Assembly: GCA_018222605.1 (NCBI GenBank)
Contig: JAAEZZ010000002.1
Location: forward strand, 124,001 to 188,000
From: Alphaproteobacteria bacterium
GTDB lineage: Bacteria; Pseudomonadota; Alphaproteobacteria; Caulobacterales; Hyphomonadaceae
Length of the DNA: 64,000 bases
Direction: 5' to 3'
How positions within the stretch are numbered: position 1 is the first letter of the stretch; each line of letters begins with the position of its first letter. Shown in pieces: positions 45,554 to 51,305 of this stretch. The notes under the pieces were generated by a model, which saw nothing but the letters and a program-made list of their open reading frames with translations, was not told where the DNA came from and did not search any database. A program made the position numbers and the translations under genes.

Positions 45554-46267
45554 TCAGGCGGCTTCCTCAATCTCGTTTGTTTTCGAGCTCGGGCGCGGGT
45601 CACGGAGCACATAGCCGCGGCCCCAGACGGTTTCGATATAATGGTTACCACCGGTCGCCTGCTGCAGCTTCTTGCGCAGCTTACAAATGAACACGTCGAT
45701 GATCTTCAGTTCCGGCTCATCCATCCCGCCATAGAGGTGGTTGAGGAACATTTCCTTGGTCAGCGTCGTGCCCTTGCGCAGCGAGAGCAGTTCGAACATC
45801 TGGTATTCCTTGCCGGTCAGGTGAACGCGCTCGTCGTCTACTTCCACCGTCTTGGCATCCAGGTTGACGATGATTTCGCCTGTGCGGATCACGCTCTCGG
45901 CATGGCCTTTGGAGCGGCGCACAATGGCTGTGATACGGGCAATCAGCTCGTCTTTGTTAAACGGTTTGGTCAGGTAATCGTCTGCGCCGTAGCCGAGTGT
46001 CTTAACCTTGGCTTCGATGTCAGGGTTACCGGACAGGATCATGACCGGCGTGTTCACACGGCCCATCCGCAGCTGTTTGAGCACCTCATACCCGGAGATA
46101 TCCGGCAGGGAGAGGTCCAGCACGATCATGTCGTATTCGTAGACTTTTCCGAGGTCGACGCCTTCTTCGCCAAGGTCGGTCGTATAGATGTTGAAGCCCG
46201 CAGCTTTCAGCATCAGCTCGATTGAACGCGCGACAGCGCTATCGTCTTCAATAAGCAGGACGCGCAT
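45554..46267 (-). CDS. ctrA: cell-cycle master response regulator CtrA
   Basis: A 237-residue OmpR-type regulator almost identical in pattern to Caulobacter CtrA. Receiver: acidic pair EDD near residue 8, phospho-Asp51 (IVLDLSLPD), Lys in [12 protein letters not shown]-binding domain: [40 protein letters not shown] and [11 protein letters not shown]. The C terminus ends in Ala-Ala, the ClpXP degron in Caulobacter. It represses replication initiation and activates flagellar and division genes. Its promoter has GANTC sites and a CtrA-box-like site; it has its own terminator. Confidence 0.98.
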
Positions 46268-46403: not shown

Positions 46404-47243
46404 TTAATAGCCAAGCTCCGCGGAGGAACCCGCGCCGATCAGCATCTGTGAAATTGCGATGGCATCCTGGATCGGTTGCGCCTGCTGATCCGTAGAGATC
46501 AGCGTTTTCTGGCAACGGATCGCATCGCGCACTTTCGGGTCCCGCATAACGGTGCCTGCAAGATGTGGACGGAAGCCAAGGAAGGTCTGGCAAGCCCGCG
46601 CAATCGCCTCATAGGTTCTTTGCCCTGCAGCGCGTGATTCGGCCTGGTTAATACAGATCACGGGTTCCACGTTCGGCGCATAACCTCTCAGAACCTTGAT
46701 GAACGCATAGGCATCCGTCATCGAGGTCGGCTCGTCCGTGATAACCATCAATGCCTTGTCGGCGGCACGCGCCAGGCGCATGCAGTTGGCCTCAATGCCG
46801 GCGCCAAGGTCCACGACCACCTGGTCATATTGCAGGGCCAGCGCAGAGAGACCCGCGGCAAGGCGGGCAACTTCTTCTGGCGGAAGCTCAGCGAGAGCGC
46901 CTGAGCCTGACCGGCCCGGCAGCACATCAAAACCACCTCCTGCAGCGCCGCCATCAACGGGCGTAACCGCATCATCCAGCTCAACCCAGCCTGCAATCAC
47001 GGCGGCGAGGTCTGTTTCCGGTGCGATGCCCAGCTGTACGTCAACATTGGCAAGGCCAAGATCACCATCCACCAGCAGCGTGCGCTTGCCAGCCTGCGCG
47101 AAGGCAGAAGCCAGCGTGATGGCCATGAAGGTCTTGCCCACCCCGCCCTTGCCACTGGCAACAGCGATGATCGAGGCCGGAGCAACGCGCGGAGCCGGGC
47201 GCTGTTGCGGCCGATCCTGGGATTTTCGAAGCATGAAGCTCAT
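46404..47243 (-). CDS. flhG: FlhG (MinD-like flagellar-number ATPase)
   Basis: A 279-residue MinD/ParA-family ATPase. Deviant Walker A SGKGGVGKTFMA, Walker A' region VDGDLGLANVD and the switch DLGAGIEANC are intact, so ATP hydrolysis is likely. It restricts flagellar number and works with FlhF. It lies 4 bases after flhF and is the last gene before the ctrA promoter. The C terminus (ISQMLIGAGSSAELGY) lacks a clear MinD-type amphipathic membrane helix. FlhG fits better than MinD because of the flagellar context. Confidence 0.88.
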   Translation of the reverse strand: MSFMLRKSQDRPQQRPAPRVAPASIIAVASGKGGVGKTFMAITLASAFAQAGKRTLLVDGDLGLANVDVQLGIAPETDLAAVIAGWVELDDAVTPVDGGAAGGGFDVLPGRSGSGALAELPPEEVARLAAGLSALALQYDQVVVDLGAGIEANCMRLARAADKALMVITDEPTSMTDAYAFIKVLRGYAPNVEPVICINQAESRAAGQRTYEAIARACQTFLGFRPHLAGTVMRDPKVRDAIRCQKTLISTDQQAQPIQDAIAISQMLIGAGSSAELGY

Positions 47244-47247
47244 GAGA

Positions 47248-48255
47248 TTACGCAGCTCCTTTCAGGGCGATCACATCGCCCGGGGCATCTTCCATCAACA
47301 AGGCAGCCAGCCGGGAGGGCGCTGCCGGCACCAGCCCACCGCCGATAAACGGCGTCACGGCGAGATGCGAGAAGGCAATGCCAGCTGATGACAGGGCCGA
47401 TATGGCCCCTCCCCGCCGGCGGGCAATGTCGAGTTTGGTAAGGATCGCGCGGCGAATGCCGGCGCGGGCAAAGGCACGGGCCGAATCGGCCTGATCTTCC
47501 GGATGTCCCTCGGCAGACATGACGAGCACAGGCTCGGCGCGCACAACGGCGATCAAATCCTGCAGGCTGGCCATATCATCCTGATCGAATGGATTGATGG
47601 CCGGCAGGTCGATAATGCAGCGATTGCCGGTCTCGCGCAGCCTGCGCAGCACGTTGAACAGGGCGTCGGGCGTCTCGGCAATGCGGATCTGGCCGCGTTC
47701 CTGCTCAAGATAAGCGGCCAGCTGCTCGCCTCCGGCCGTGCCGTCGAGATCTGCGGCAACCGGCATGATCTGGGTGCGTGCCACGGCGGCGCGACGGGTC
47801 AGCTTTGCAGCTGTCGCGGTGCGGCCATGCCCCGGAGGTCCAACGAGAATGATATCCTTTTCCAGGCGCGCCGGAATCGGGTCGCAGGTAACGATACGCT
47901 CCAGACCGGCGGCGATGGAATCTTCAGGGGCGGAGCTTGGCGTGCTGTGGCGGCCAGCCCCCTCATTTGCCACACGGTCTGCAAAGCGCTGGGGTGCGCC
48001 ATGCCAGAGCAGCGCGTCGCGGACGCGGCTGTAGAGCGGGTTTTCAGAGCCACGGCCGTGACCGCCGCGCGATTCACGCAGGAAGAGCGGCTCGCTCGGC
48101 ACCACTCCTCCGCCAAGCTTGTCTGTAGCTGCGCGGACCTCGACTCCCCCGTCGATTTCGCGCTCTGACAGGATCACCGCATCGGCGCCCATCTCGGCAA
48201 AAATCATCGCCTTGGCAGCTTCGAAAGTCTCCGCAGCGAACATCTTCATGCGCAT
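47248..48255 (-). CDS. flhF: FlhF-like SRP-family GTPase with degenerate G motifs
   Basis: A 335-residue protein. The N-terminal FlhF domain is clear (MKMFAAETFEAAKAMIFAEM, GADAVILSERE), followed by a shortened linker. The NG domain starts near 115. G1 is GPPGHGRTAT (139-148) where FlhF has GPTGVGKT: the catalytic Lys is Arg145. G3 (normally DTAGR) reads DLPAIN; the G4 TKLD (273-276) and a G5-like GGGLVP remain. FlhF recruits the first flagellar components to the pole; this copy probably binds GTP poorly or not at all. It is upstream of and close to flhG. First ATG at 48255, with AAGGGA upstream. Confidence 0.82.
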   Translation of the reverse strand: MRMKMFAAETFEAAKAMIFAEMGADAVILSEREIDGGVEVRAATDKLGGGVVPSEPLFLRESRGGHGRGSENPLYSRVRDALLWHGAPQRFADRVANEGAGRHSTPSSAPEDSIAAGLERIVTCDPIPARLEKDIILVGPPGHGRTATAAKLTRRAAVARTQIMPVAADLDGTAGGEQLAAYLEQERGQIRIAETPDALFNVLRRLRETGNRCIIDLPAINPFDQDDMASLQDLIAVVRAEPVLVMSAEGHPEDQADSARAFARAGIRRAILTKLDIARRRGGAISALSSAGIAFSHLAVTPFIGGGLVPAAPSRLAALLMEDAPGDVIALKGAA

Positions 48256-48419: not shown

Positions 48420-48686
48420 TCAGGCAGCTGCACGTTCATCAACGATTTCGGACAGGGTGACCCCCAATTGTCCATCGGCGATGACCAGCTTGCCGCGCGC
48501 CATCAGGCGGTCGGAAAGGTAAATATCCACCGGTTCGTCGGTCTTGCGCTGAAGGGCGATGATGTCCCCTTCCGACATGGCCATCAATTCCTCGATCGGC
48601 ATGCGCACCTCGCCCAGCACCACATCCACGCGGACGGGTACATCCATCAGGCTCTTCTTCAGGGCGGGGTTTTCGGAATCAGTCAT
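48420..48686 (-). CDS. fliN: flagellar motor switch protein FliN
   Basis: An 88-residue SpoA-domain protein: LMDVPVRVDVVLGEVRMPIE, LMAMSEGDIIALQR, PVDIYLSDRLMARGKLVIAD and LGVTLSEIV match FliN closely. It forms the lower C-ring with FliM and FliG. Length is short but complete for the domain. It starts 14 bases after the fliH stop with GGAAGGACG upstream. It is the last gene of the fliFGHN operon. Confidence 0.95.
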   Translation of the reverse strand: MTDSENPALKKSLMDVPVRVDVVLGEVRMPIEELMAMSEGDIIALQRKTDEPVDIYLSDRLMARGKLVIADGQLGVTLSEIVDERAAA

Positions 48687-48700
48687 GATCGTCCTTCCGG

Positions 48701-49102
48701 CTATCCTCTGAATGGGTCGGATTTAAGGGATTGCTGCGCGGCGAACAGGTCCCCCTGCCCGTCTATGATGGTGCGGGCTGTCGCCCTTATTAGCTGAGTG
48801 GCCCGCTCACTGAAACCCTCCTCCAGCGCGCAGGCCTCCAGATGGCTTGTCAGGGCCACGAGACTTGCCAAAGCCTCGTTGAGCGCATTCGTGACCGCCT
48901 GCAAGCGCTCCGCCTCGTCACGCGCCTGTTCCGCGCGCACAGTTGCAGCGCCTTCAGCCCGCGCTTCTGCCAGCAATTGCACCAGTTCCGGGGTTGTCAG
49001 GCGGACCGGCGGGTCTTCTTCGAGCACGGCAGGCGGGGCTGCCGCAACACTGAAATCGCTGCGGAAGTCAAAAGGCGTGAGGGATTTGACAGCGCGCTGC
49101 AT
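48701..49102 (-). CDS. fliH: FliH-like flagellar export regulator (FlbE position)
   Basis: A 133-residue protein, shorter than FliH of most bacteria (over 200). The N terminus has FDFRSDF, a segment seen in Caulobacterales FliH/FlbE. A long charged helix follows (AEARAEGAATVRAEQARDEA). The C-terminal ATRTIIDGQ-like region is weak. FliH holds the export ATPase FliI at the base. The assignment rests mainly on position between fliG and fliN, as in Caulobacter (flbE). Start ATG overlaps the fliG stop by one base. Confidence 0.75.
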   Translation of the reverse strand: MQRAVKSLTPFDFRSDFSVAAAPPAVLEEDPPVRLTTPELVQLLAEARAEGAATVRAEQARDEAERLQAVTNALNEALASLVALTSHLEACALEEGFSERATQLIRATARTIIDGQGDLFAAQQSLKSDPFRG

Positions 49103-50043
49103 TATTCGACCAGTTCGTCCTCATCTTCCGGCAGACCACCGCGAATATCGCCCTGATTAATCAGGGCGCGCGCCAGCCGGACTAGTTCACGGCGGGCCGC
49201 TTCCACTTCGCTGCGGCGCACAGGGCCCAGCATGGCGATTTCCTCGCGCAGCAGGCTGCCCGCACGTTGCGTCATGTTGCGGAAGAAGGCCGTCGCCGTT
49301 TCCGGCTTTGCACCCTTCAGCGCCAGGGTCAGCATAGCGCGGTCTGACGATGACAGTAGGGTCTGCAGGCCTGCCGTGTCCATTTTCGCGAGATCATCAA
49401 AAGTGAACATGAGCGCGCGGACACGGTCACCCACACCCGGCTCAGCGCTGTCCAGTGCCGCGAGCAGGTTCTGCTCTGCCTGGCTGTCCAACTGGTCAAA
49501 GATGCGGGCAATACGCTCATGCCCGCTGGCAATGGAGGGCCGCAGACTGTTGTCCAGCCAGCCGGAGACGGCCGCCTCCAGCCCTTTCAGCGCAATCGGG
49601 TTTACCGGACCGATATGCAGAAGGCGCTGCATGATATCGACGGCGTGTCTGGTGCGGATAACTTTCAGCAGCCGTGCGGCGGCTTCACCCTCCATGCGCG
49701 ACAGGATCAGCGCGATGGTTTGGGGGTGCTGCCCGCCCAGCAGCTGCAGGAGGTCCGCCGTTTCCATGGCAGAGAGACGCGCCCAGACGCTGCTGCCGGC
49801 TGCGGGTTTGGGCGTGTAATGCGTGTGCGCCTTCACATAGGTCTGCACGGCTTCGGCCTCATGGCCGTAATCATCGTCCAGCGCATCCATGGCGGCAGAC
49901 AGCGCATGGGCCTCTTCACTGGACAGCTCTCCCCAGACCGGGGCAGCATCCGGGCCAAGCGCACGCATTAGACGAGCAGATCTAGCAAGGCCTTCCGGCG
50001 GGCGCGCGGATGGCCCAGCCTGTTTCAGGGCAAGCGCGGTCAT
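49102..50043 (-). CDS. fliG: flagellar motor switch protein FliG
   Basis: A 313-residue FliG. The N-terminal FliF-binding domain (LARSARLMRALGPDAAPVWG), middle domain with the (E)HPQTIALIL motif (GGQHPQTIALILSRMEG) and C-terminal domain (TFDDLAKMDTAGLQTLL; RNMTQRAGSLLREE; GPVRRSEVEAA) are all present. Charged residues that face the stator are in the last domain. Its ATG overlaps the fliF stop by 4 bases, so expression is coupled with the unusually short FliF. Confidence 0.95.
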   Translation of the reverse strand: MTALALKQAGPSARPPEGLARSARLMRALGPDAAPVWGELSSEEAHALSAAMDALDDDYGHEAEAVQTYVKAHTHYTPKPAAGSSVWARLSAMETADLLQLLGGQHPQTIALILSRMEGEAAARLLKVIRTRHAVDIMQRLLHIGPVNPIALKGLEAAVSGWLDNSLRPSIASGHERIARIFDQLDSQAEQNLLAALDSAEPGVGDRVRALMFTFDDLAKMDTAGLQTLLSSSDRAMLTLALKGAKPETATAFFRNMTQRAGSLLREEIAMLGPVRRSEVEAARRELVRLARALINQGDIRGGLPEDEDELVE

Positions 50044-50714
50044 GCGGCCCCCCCTTCCCCATGCATCCAGCTACGCAGGATGGAGGCCGTGCGGGCCGGA
50101 TCTTTCTGGACGAGTTTTGCAGCGGCGCCGGGCTCCGCGGTCAGGGCCGGTTTGGCTTTCAGGCGGGTCTCTTGCAGGGCGGGCTCAAGTGCAGCTTCAA
50201 CCGGCTCTGCGGCTTTGACCCGCTTTGCATCCGCCGCTGGTGCATCGGACGGCTTCAGTCCAATCCAGGCGAGCATCGCCAGCAATGCGCCATACAGGCC
50301 GAGTTCCGTCCAGCCTGAAGCAGACGGACGGCCCGGCACACCGCGCGCAAAGGCGGCCTGCTCGATCACCAATTGATCGCCCTCTTCCGGATTCATCATC
50401 AGCGCGGATGTCGTCAGACGCTCCAGCGTAGGTGCGGCTTCACTGACGCGGCTCGCCAGCAGGATCAGGACGGAGTGAGACGTGCCCTCACCTGTCACCG
50501 ACAGCCGGATATTTCCCTTGCCTGCGACAGGCTCAAGAATACCCATGAGAGAGGCTTCGACCTTGGAGCCAGGCACCCACTCATCGGCAGGCTGGGTAAA
50601 CAGACTTGTTCCCCGCCAGCAACCGAGCAGGATTACGATCAGACATGCAAACAGCGCGATGGCCTGTGTGGAGGGCCCCGCGCTGCGCTGCGATTTTGCG
50701 AACCGAAAATCCAT
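50040..50714 (-). CDS. fliF: minimal FliF (MS-ring protein lacking RBM1 and RBM2)
   Basis: Only 224 residues, against roughly 530-570 for FliF. In order: TM1 (about 20-36, IALFACLIVILLGCW); a region like the start of RBM3 (KVEASLMGILEPVAGKGNI); a segment like its end (ERLTTSALMMNPEEGDQLVI); TM2 (about 137-154); a charged linker; and the FliG-binding tail (KLVQKDPARTASILRSWM). Missing are RBM1, RBM2 and the insertion in RBM3 that forms the beta-collar. Synteny sciP-fliF-fliG-fliH-fliN is that of Caulobacter, so it is the fliF locus, not a stray paralogue. ATG at 50714 has a CAGGAG 6 bases upstream. The 4-base overlap with fliG and an intact frame argue against decay. Confidence 0.8.
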   Translation of the reverse strand: MDFRFAKSQRSAGPSTQAIALFACLIVILLGCWRGTSLFTQPADEWVPGSKVEASLMGILEPVAGKGNIRLSVTGEGTSHSVLILLASRVSEAAPTLERLTTSALMMNPEEGDQLVIEQAAFARGVPGRPSASGWTELGLYGALLAMLAWIGLKPSDAPAADAKRVKAAEPVEAALEPALQETRLKAKPALTAEPGAAAKLVQKDPARTASILRSWMHGEGGAA

Positions 50715-50776: not shown

Positions 50777-50791
50777 TAAATTTGTGTTTAA
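50777..50791 (-). promoter_or_regulatory. CtrA-box-like site upstream of fliF
   Basis: Read on the minus strand, TTAA-ACACAAA-TTTA: two half-sites with the consensus 7-base spacing and one mismatch from TTAA-N7-TTAA. It lies 63-77 bases before the fliF ATG. A further GTTAAC lies at 50804-50809. Confidence 0.6.
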
Positions 50792-50821: not shown

Positions 50822-51094
50822 CTAGCTGCGATATTGCTGCAGGCGGGTTGTACGCAGGCCTTTGGTGCCGTGACGGTTGTAGAGCTTTTCCCAGGTCTCG
50901 TATTCCTCGTCGCTCAGGCTGTAGCGGTCACAGGCTGCCTTGCGGCTAAGAAGGCCACCAGAGACTGCTGCAACGACTTCAGCTTTGCGGCGCGTCACCC
51001 AGCGGGAGATATTAGGGGACGGCAGGTCTGCCAGGGTCAGCGTCTGGCCGTCGGGGCCGGGGACGCCTTGATTACGTGCATTATGTTTTTCCAT
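50822..51094 (-). CDS. sciP: CtrA inhibitory protein SciP (DUF1153)
   Basis: A 90-residue helix-turn-helix protein matching Caulobacter SciP: GPDGQTLTLADLPSPNISRW, VTRRKAEVVAAVSGGLLSRK, RYSLSDEEYETWEKLYNRHG and the final LRTTRLQQYR. SciP binds CtrA (and DNA) to block CtrA-dependent transcription in late predivisional/swarmer cells. I use the internal ATG at 51094; the frame continues 36 codons upstream without similarity. It is directly upstream of fliF, as in Caulobacter. Confidence 0.95.
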   Translation of the reverse strand: MEKHNARNQGVPGPDGQTLTLADLPSPNISRWVTRRKAEVVAAVSGGLLSRKAACDRYSLSDEEYETWEKLYNRHGTKGLRTTRLQQYRS

Positions 51095-51305
51095 GTCCAC
51101 ACCATTCTGGTTGCATAGTCGAAAACAGCCCGGCTTCTCCGGGAACTGTGGACAGGAAGATACACTGAGGGGTTTAAGCCTAGGCGTAAGGCAGTATGTC
51201 ACTTTTACAGCTTCGGTTAGGAGGATGTTCGTAAAGCTGTACCGCCCCGGTACAAGAGGTGAGAATCTCCCGCATTCATTACAGAAATGACAACATTATG
51301 GCGAA

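Follow-up and report, generated by a model that had tools for sequence, protein, structure and literature searches.

A short FliF gene between sciP and fliG

The window, i.e. the whole stretch of 64,000 nucleotides that was analysed, carries on its minus strand a gene of 224 codons (sFliF) between sciP and a native-type fliG (FliG2), followed by genes for FliH2, FliN2, FlhF2, FlhG2 and a CtrA-like response regulator (Table 1). The sFliF reading frame opens with an ATG, has AGGAG six bases 5' of it, contains no internal stop, and overlaps the fliG start with its own stop by four bases (50040-50043). FliN2 is canonical in its Pfam and NCBIfam matches and in alignment. FliH2 (133 aa) is missing the C-terminal half of native FliH when aligned with the three usable native rows, the row of locus L149 being in the wrong frame and L148 giving none; the N-terminal half of FliH binds FliN and the C-terminal half FliI.

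Table 1. Features at and around the short fliF gene, in window coordinates
Feature	Coordinates	Strand	Basis
CtrA-like response regulator	45554..46267	minus	name read from translation only; synteny
FlhG/MinD-like ATPase (FlhG2)	46404..47243	minus	Pfam/NCBIfam scans, synteny
FlhF-like GTPase (FlhF2)	47248..48255	minus	TIGR03499 E 1.3e-20 (under cut-off), synteny with native flhF
FliN2	48420..48686	minus	PF01052 E 2.8e-23, TIGR02480 over cut-off
FliH2, short FliH, N-terminal part only	48701..49102	minus	NF004693 E 0.012 (far under cut-off), position, alignment
FliG2, native-type, torque-helix charges present	49102..50043	minus	PF01706 E 2.7e-34
Short FliF (sFliF), 224 aa	50040..50714	minus	ORF, profile comparison, AlphaFold model, PDB sequence search
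C-terminal FliG-binding tail (predicted) of sFliF, residues 198-217	50064..50123	minus	conservation, hhalign, PDB sequence search
TM2 of sFliF, residues 132-153	50256..50321	minus	AlphaFold model and hhalign to native FliF
RBM3 core of sFliF, residues 51-120, a-b-b-a-b, without beta-collar	50355..50564	minus	AlphaFold model, PDB sequence search, Foldseek
TM1 of sFliF, residues 14-40	50595..50675	minus	helix in AlphaFold model
CtrA-like box TTAA-N7-TTTA upstream of sFliF	50777..50791	minus	motif search
sciP (CtrA inhibitor SciP)	50822..51202	minus	NF051866 E 1.6e-37, PF06627; true start probably further in

No family in Pfam or NCBIfam matches sFliF at E <= 1, PF01514 (the YscJ/FliF domain, RBM1-RBM2) and PF08345 (RBM3 with the beta-collar) included; despite the missing PF08345 match, profile comparison detects a partial RBM3 core. 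Used as a profile, the short family (28 Hyphomonas rows and 10 rows of genera g14 and g20) aligned to 11 native full-length FliF proteins with an hhalign probability of 97.4 (E 1e-11), the aligned part being the end of RBM3, TM2 and the C-terminal tail. With the 28 Hyphomonas rows alone the values were 96.1 and E 3.2e-9, and the same rows scored lower (71.0, E 3.7e-5) against FliF of the type encoded on contig C12 of this genome (see below). The top match in a PDB sequence search was TMH4C4 (E 1e-4), which covers the TM1 region only; Salmonella FliF was second, with sFliF residues 92-221 corresponding to its residues 406-559 (whole-sequence E 0.025) and, below threshold, residues 54-76 to 247-269. 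The AlphaFold model (mean pLDDT 71.7) comprises TM1, an a-b-b-a-b unit, TM2 and tail helices. Its best five Foldseek matches are all FliF MS-ring structures with probability 1.00, at E values of 6.5e-3 to 1.5e-2, i.e. none below 0.001, and KH-domain ribosomal proteins score almost equally.

Taking synteny and sequence profiles together, the 224-aa gene is a real FliF descendant. No trace of RBM1, RBM2 or the beta-collar appears in the profiles, the PDB sequence search or the model, so that, as judged from these comparisons, the parts required for a ring around the export gate and rod are absent, and a putative FliG-binding tail is present after TM2. Compared with Salmonella FliF and the native Caulobacterales protein, the order TM1, RBM3 core, TM2 and FliG-binding tail is the same, as are the sciP and fliG neighbours at the native locus; the differences are the loss of RBM1, RBM2 and the beta-collar and the length, which is 224 aa where the proteins of 11 native loci have 540-604 aa. 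SpoIIIAG-type ring proteins likewise have one RBM3-type ring domain after a TM helix, but they carry a beta-collar and are not known to have a FliG partner. The preliminary description of this DNA had read here a 224-residue FliF-like gene with an intact frame, its own Shine-Dalgarno sequence and a 4-base overlap with fliG, keeping two TM helices and a good FliG-binding tail, having lost RBM1, RBM2 and the beta-collar, and accompanied by a shortened FliH, and in all of these respects it is borne out.

Conservation and ancestry of the locus

Of 37 genomes of the same genus, the window's own included, 36 carry the short form, the one miss being G026, which is 74% complete; with an order-wide search added, it is present in 41 of 42 Hyphomonas genomes, as a single frame in 40. 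The exception is G002, in which sFliF may be broken, because it is spread over two overlapping frames. A protein of H. pacifica T16B2 is 99.6-100% identical to sFliF. At E <= 0.001 the order-wide search matched 76 of 398 genomes: 38 of Hyphomonas, 29 of other genera of the same family (25 of g14, one of g19 and three of g20) and nine of other families. Among the 29, G387 has a shorter protein, and the G215 match is truncated close to where a contig stops; the nine outside the family are weak (E 3e-5 to 9.5e-4) and fall in open frames as long as a full FliF (501-573 aa). Twenty listed genomes of the same family gave no match (18 of g15-g18, one of g21 and G311 of g14), nor did a further 302 of the order. 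A scan of contigs with a single peptide pattern gave 27 loci.

This recurrence in 41 of 42 Hyphomonas genomes and 29 further ones of the family, the matches in G387 and G215 being partial, rules out a sequencing or assembly error hiding 300 codons, which had been named at the outset as something that could undo the observation. Pairwise NG86 estimates of dN/dS over 14 pairs were 0.044-0.216 for sFliF, 0.026-0.138 for FliG2 and 0-0.094 for SciP, several pairs having dS above 1, where the method is rough. These ratios, with the conservation, rule out a chance open reading frame, and the earlier view of sFliF as a selected, reduced form agrees with them. A CtrA-like box (TTAA-N7-TTAA, with at most one mismatch) lies 72-80 bases 5' of the start in 20/20 Hyphomonas regions, chosen by hand from 30 loci, against 0.24 expected in mononucleotide shuffles, a ratio that overstates the evidence because related sequences are not independent.

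Eleven native loci were fetched from g15-g18 and four other families (L146-L156), and all have the order flgE-sciP-FliF(540-604 aa)-FliG-FliN-flhA, with flhF next in 10 and flhG, within the stretch, in seven. The 18 short-form loci fetched in addition to the window have the order sciP-sFliF-FliG2-FliH2-FliN2, and neither flgE nor flhA was found in the fetched stretch of any of them; flhF follows in 11, FlhF2 and FlhG2 are absent beside the locus in seven, and the Hyphomonas locus is often accompanied by flhF-flhG-ctrA. In one of the 18 (L165) sFliF is visible only by profile.

A tree built from 46 FliG rows unites the 19 rows of FliG2 in a clade (100/99) that falls on the native side and has a long stem (1.49); the 16 FliG1 rows of C12-type clusters make up a separate clade (100/100), and the 11 native rows, taken as one group, have values of 71/91; L157, L158 and L163 (family f5) were left out of this tree. 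Synteny and the placement of FliG2 with native FliG indicate that the window locus is the old Caulobacterales flagellar locus in stripped form, and on this comparative evidence we take it to be a remnant of the ancestral one. Two genomes of another family of the order, G052 (L155/L167) and G205 (L156/L166), contain both native-type and fla2-type clusters, possibly an image of the state before reduction. In f5, L157 (G167) and L158 (G048) represent a third cluster type, with the order FliL-FliF-FliN-FliP-FliG and a native-like FliG.

The swimming flagellum of the marine bacterium from which the window comes is encoded elsewhere in its genome. A 508-aa open reading frame on contig C12 matches PF01514 (E 5.3e-44) and PF08345 (E 4.5e-32), and searches of the genome with each profile hit this one place only. 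It belongs to an apparently complete cluster containing fliL, fliF, fliH, fliN, fliP, fliG, flgI, flgL, flgK, flgE, motB, motA, flgF, flgG, fliK, fliC, flaF, flbT, fliI, flgB, flgC, fliE, flhA, fliR and flhB, among others; the names were read from the open reading frames, those of FliF, FlhA, FliG, FliN/FliM, MotA and MotB being borne out by profile searches, and fliQ falls below the listed ORF length. The sole FlhA found in the genome lies in this cluster, and no second FlhA (export gate) that could serve sFliF and its partners was found in any of the 42 Hyphomonas genomes, the two FlhA matches of G029 lying at contig ends and jointly covering one profile. Full-length FliF exceeds the cut-off in 39 of these 42 genomes and FlhA in 40. 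According to PMC6180460, the arrangement of flgB and fliI in H. neptunium resembles that of the fla2 genes in Rhodobacter sphaeroides, which fits a fla2-type label for the C12 cluster. G060 has two different fla2-type clusters (L159 and L160), about 230 kb apart.

The swimming flagellum of this genome is therefore the fla2-type one of contig C12, and sFliF is not its MS-ring. The preliminary description had proposed that the MS-ring of the organism is built differently, from the short protein, or receives what sFliF lacks from another protein. The position of sFliF in the conserved fliF locus speaks for such a ring, and the full-length FliF, on C12 as in 39 of the 42 Hyphomonas genomes, speaks against it, leaving it only the slightest chance. 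An orphan RBM1/RBM2 protein is excluded, since PF01514 at E <= 10 finds the C12 FliF alone in the whole genome. Both a second, full-length fliF in the genome and relatives with an intact long fliF at the same locus (L146-L156), each of which had been named as counting against the proposal, were found.

Retained rotor and stator genes

What has been cut from the locus (RBM1, RBM2, the beta-collar, the C-terminal half of FliH, flhA and flgE) is export- or rod-related, and what is retained (the RBM3 core, the FliG tail, the FliG torque charges and FliN) serves the rotor; as read from domain and gene content, the pruning runs along the line between torque and export. At the FliG positions that we take, from E. 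coli, to be relevant to torque, the charges K, R, E, E, R are present in 8/8 Hyphomonas FliG2 rows. All 10 rows of g14 and g20 (without G387) have K, R and the second acidic residue; two have the first acidic residue, and the last position is R in nine and K in one. The pattern was not seen in the FliG1 rows; FliG1 of the swimming cluster (L003, 12287-13399), unlike FliG2, is without the usual torque-helix charges.

Further members of this second set (set 2, as distinct from set 1 of the swimming cluster) lie at three loci apart from sFliF, with MotA2 on contig C9, MotB2 on C5 and FliM2 on C4. FliM2 (G000, 425 aa as called) has the sequence L(S/T)xAEIEALL, which we take to be a CheY-binding motif, in 6/6 aligned rows; it matches fliM_switch under its cut-off, Pfam gives PF01052 only, and its middle domain is weak. 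With a score of 304.5 against a cut-off of 303.8, MotA2 of the window's genome passes the NCBIfam MotA model, and both prolines and the loop glutamate are present in 10/10 rows. All three MotB2 proteins scanned contain plug and OmpA domains, and the Asp of YADF/YVDF is present in 16/16 rows; MotB2 measures 225-252 aa against 288-307 aa in four native MotB proteins; the shortening (L198-L203, L206-L209, L212-L217) sits between the plug and the OmpA domain and parallels that of FliF. In unrooted trees MotA2 and MotB2 stand apart from the native and cluster types, without the source of either being told; one row of the MotA tree (L185, branch length 10) is in the wrong frame and L193 is not among its rows, the frames having been corrected in the motif check. 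By profile and motif, a putative rotor and stator gene set is thus present, comprising FliG2, FliM2 (with its weak middle domain), FliN2, MotA2 and MotB2.

Across the 42 Hyphomonas genomes, FliG_C occurs at two places in 39 (one in G017, G021 and G026), and FliM/FliN C-domains at exactly four in 36, the exceptions having six (G062), three (G029, G026, G001) or two (G017, G021). Leaving G026 aside, MotA is found at two places in 38/41, with the second type only in G017 and G021 and the first type only in G062, and MotB at two places in 39/41, again with the second type only in G017 and G021.

The second set could be an accessory of the swimming flagellum, with FliG2, FliM2, FliN2 and MotA2/MotB2 as an alternative C-ring or stator of the fla2-type motor and sFliF anchoring or regulating it. 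Mixed stators are known in other bacteria, and most Hyphomonas genomes with set 2 also have the swimming set, as the counts of full-length FliF and FlhA given above indicate. However, the parts of FliF that would house a rod or the export gate are missing from sFliF, and FliF1 has a FliG1 of its own, whose torque face differs. Set 2 also occurs without the searched set-1 markers, in G017, G021 and G068, although G017 may reflect an assembly gap; we regard an accessory role as unlikely, if worth keeping in mind.

These three genomes were considered more closely. No FlhA, FliF1, FliG1, FliN1, FliM1, MotA1 or MotB1 was found in G017 or G021, and no FliG1, MotA1 or MotB1 in G068 (g14); as far as searched, all three keep set 2, FliM2 and FliN2 not being counted in G068. 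The set-1 markers lie in one cluster, so that a single missing contig could explain the absences. Both G017 and G021 are MAGs, and in G017 a contig stops among genes that border the cluster in other species: open reading frames of 132, 300, 270 and 342 aa and a response-regulator-like one, found left of the cluster in G023, G062, G014 and G016 (not each everywhere), occupy the 3' end of contig C7 in G017, from which, going by the spacing in G016, some 9 kb would remain to the cluster. In G020, the genome closest to G017 by the FliG tree, none of them was matched in the 38 kb fetched left of the cluster; of G017 itself, the check covered 40 stretches, 570,653 of about 3.2 million bases. Since a missing contig can explain the lack in G017, genomes without swimming genes are given little weight, and the argument that flagellum-less genomes keep the motor was dropped as a proof. 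Other genomes cut against a motor core: in G311 (g14, 95% complete) MotA2 and MotB2 were found and FliG and sFliF were not, so that the stator may work without an sFliF rotor; in G381 (80% complete) sFliF, FliG2 and MotA2 are present and no MotB was found; G062 has MotA of the first type only; and sFliF of G002 is split between frames. Also weighing against a motor core are the position of FliM2, MotA2 and MotB2 at three separate loci, the weak middle domain of FliM2, the open descent of MotA2 and MotB2 in the unrooted trees, and an sFliF model with a mean pLDDT of 71.7 and no Foldseek E under 0.001.

A further reading is that the locus is a slowly decaying relic of the old flagellum, devoid of motor function and at most serving a minor role, e.g. 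polar scaffolding with FlhF/FlhG. The strong reduction, the long FliG2 stem branch and the frame break in G002 point in this direction, as does G387 (90% complete), whose FliG2 lacks key torque charges including K and R and in which no MotB was found; its locus (L165, contig C60, 4005-4385, minus strand) encodes a FliF-like protein of 126 aa with two TM-like stretches and a FliG-binding tail and no RBM3, a state that may represent decay of the unit. Against a relic stand the dN/dS values well under 1, the kept stator and torque residues, the CtrA-like box in 20/20 regions and the fact that part loss follows function; moreover, since FlhF2 and FlhG2 are absent beside seven of the 18 short loci, a role tied to them is not general. 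We consider a relic decidedly improbable.

A filament-less second motor core as the favoured reading

The anatomy of sFliF, the synteny, the placement of FliG2 with native FliG, the selection, the promoter box and the second FliM, MotA and MotB are all observed, and on this basis we put the probability that sFliF serves as FliF in a second flagellar motor core, one without a filament, at roughly 0.55. Older motor parts that are trimmed, under selection and without filament-building parts suggest a small motor with another job. The fuller proposal, that sFliF-FliG2-FliM2-FliN2 with MotA2-MotB2 make up a free-standing, ion-driven inner-membrane motor, derived from a flagellum, without export gate, rod, hook or filament, and kept in Hyphomonas and related genera beside a swimming flagellum of other origin, is tentative, its chances falling somewhat below even.

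In this proposal the ancestral Caulobacterales flagellum would have been replaced for swimming by the fla2-type flagellum of C12, after which the old locus would have lost its hook and export genes, FliF and FliH being cut to the parts that hold the C-ring. Retaining TM1, a ring-forming RBM3 core, TM2 and the FliG-binding tail, sFliF would form with FliG2, FliN2, FliM2, MotA2 and MotB2 a membrane ring and C-ring that is ion-driven and turns no rod or filament. We infer that the set-2 proteins assemble together, rotate and signal; their use might be that of a CtrA-timed, CheY-addressable sensor or signalling unit for load, surface contact or ion-motive force. Genome G016, which we take to be H. 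neptunium, keeps the set of sFliF, FliG2, FliM/FliN, MotA2 and MotB2. Since H. neptunium is reported, in the part of PMC3368421 concerned with it, to be without most holdfast genes, a role in holdfast formation only is unlikely.

A precedent for signalling by a rotor and stator without a finished flagellum is provided by Caulobacter crescentus, in which, according to PMC7885107, late flagellar mutants with an intact rotor produce more holdfast in a manner that needs MotAB and DgcB, and a model has been outlined in PMC11580411 in which stators integrate mechanical and chemical signals. The filament-less rotor and stator proposed here would be a permanent version of this C. crescentus sensor. 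The likeness lies in a rotor and stator acting without a finished filament; the difference is that the Caulobacter rotor is an assembly stage of a real flagellum, whereas the Hyphomonas set is separate, without export or rod parts, and its signalling is conjectural. Rhodobacter sphaeroides similarly has two flagellar gene sets, fla1 and fla2, that differ in origin (PMC6180460), but in Hyphomonas one of the two is reduced to rotor and stator genes. A hat-like inner-membrane complex has been seen in H. neptunium and others, and was dropped as evidence for an sFliF ring because deletion of fliF in H. pylori leaves it in place, as given in the portion of PMC9380563 that deals with it.

Our search of openly licensed papers turned up neither a short FliF nor a second rotor set described for Hyphomonas. 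A Caulobacterales survey (PMC12700997) records the presence and absence of motility genes and, in the sections that bear on them, makes no mention of a reduced second set. Such a conserved half-motor, pruned one domain after another and accompanied by a second pair of stator proteins, would be a minimal rotor provided by nature, available in a genus of which species are in culture, and would bear on what a flagellar motor does without a flagellum; if the reading is true, it would show which part of FliF suffices for carrying a C-ring. Beside FliM2, two conserved proteins without a Pfam match (L130, G000 contig C4, 11916-13238 and 13932-14285) lie next to DksA; the same two adjoin FliM2 in G017, G021, G007, G003 and G018, with a second FlbT nearby, and are candidate partners of the unit.
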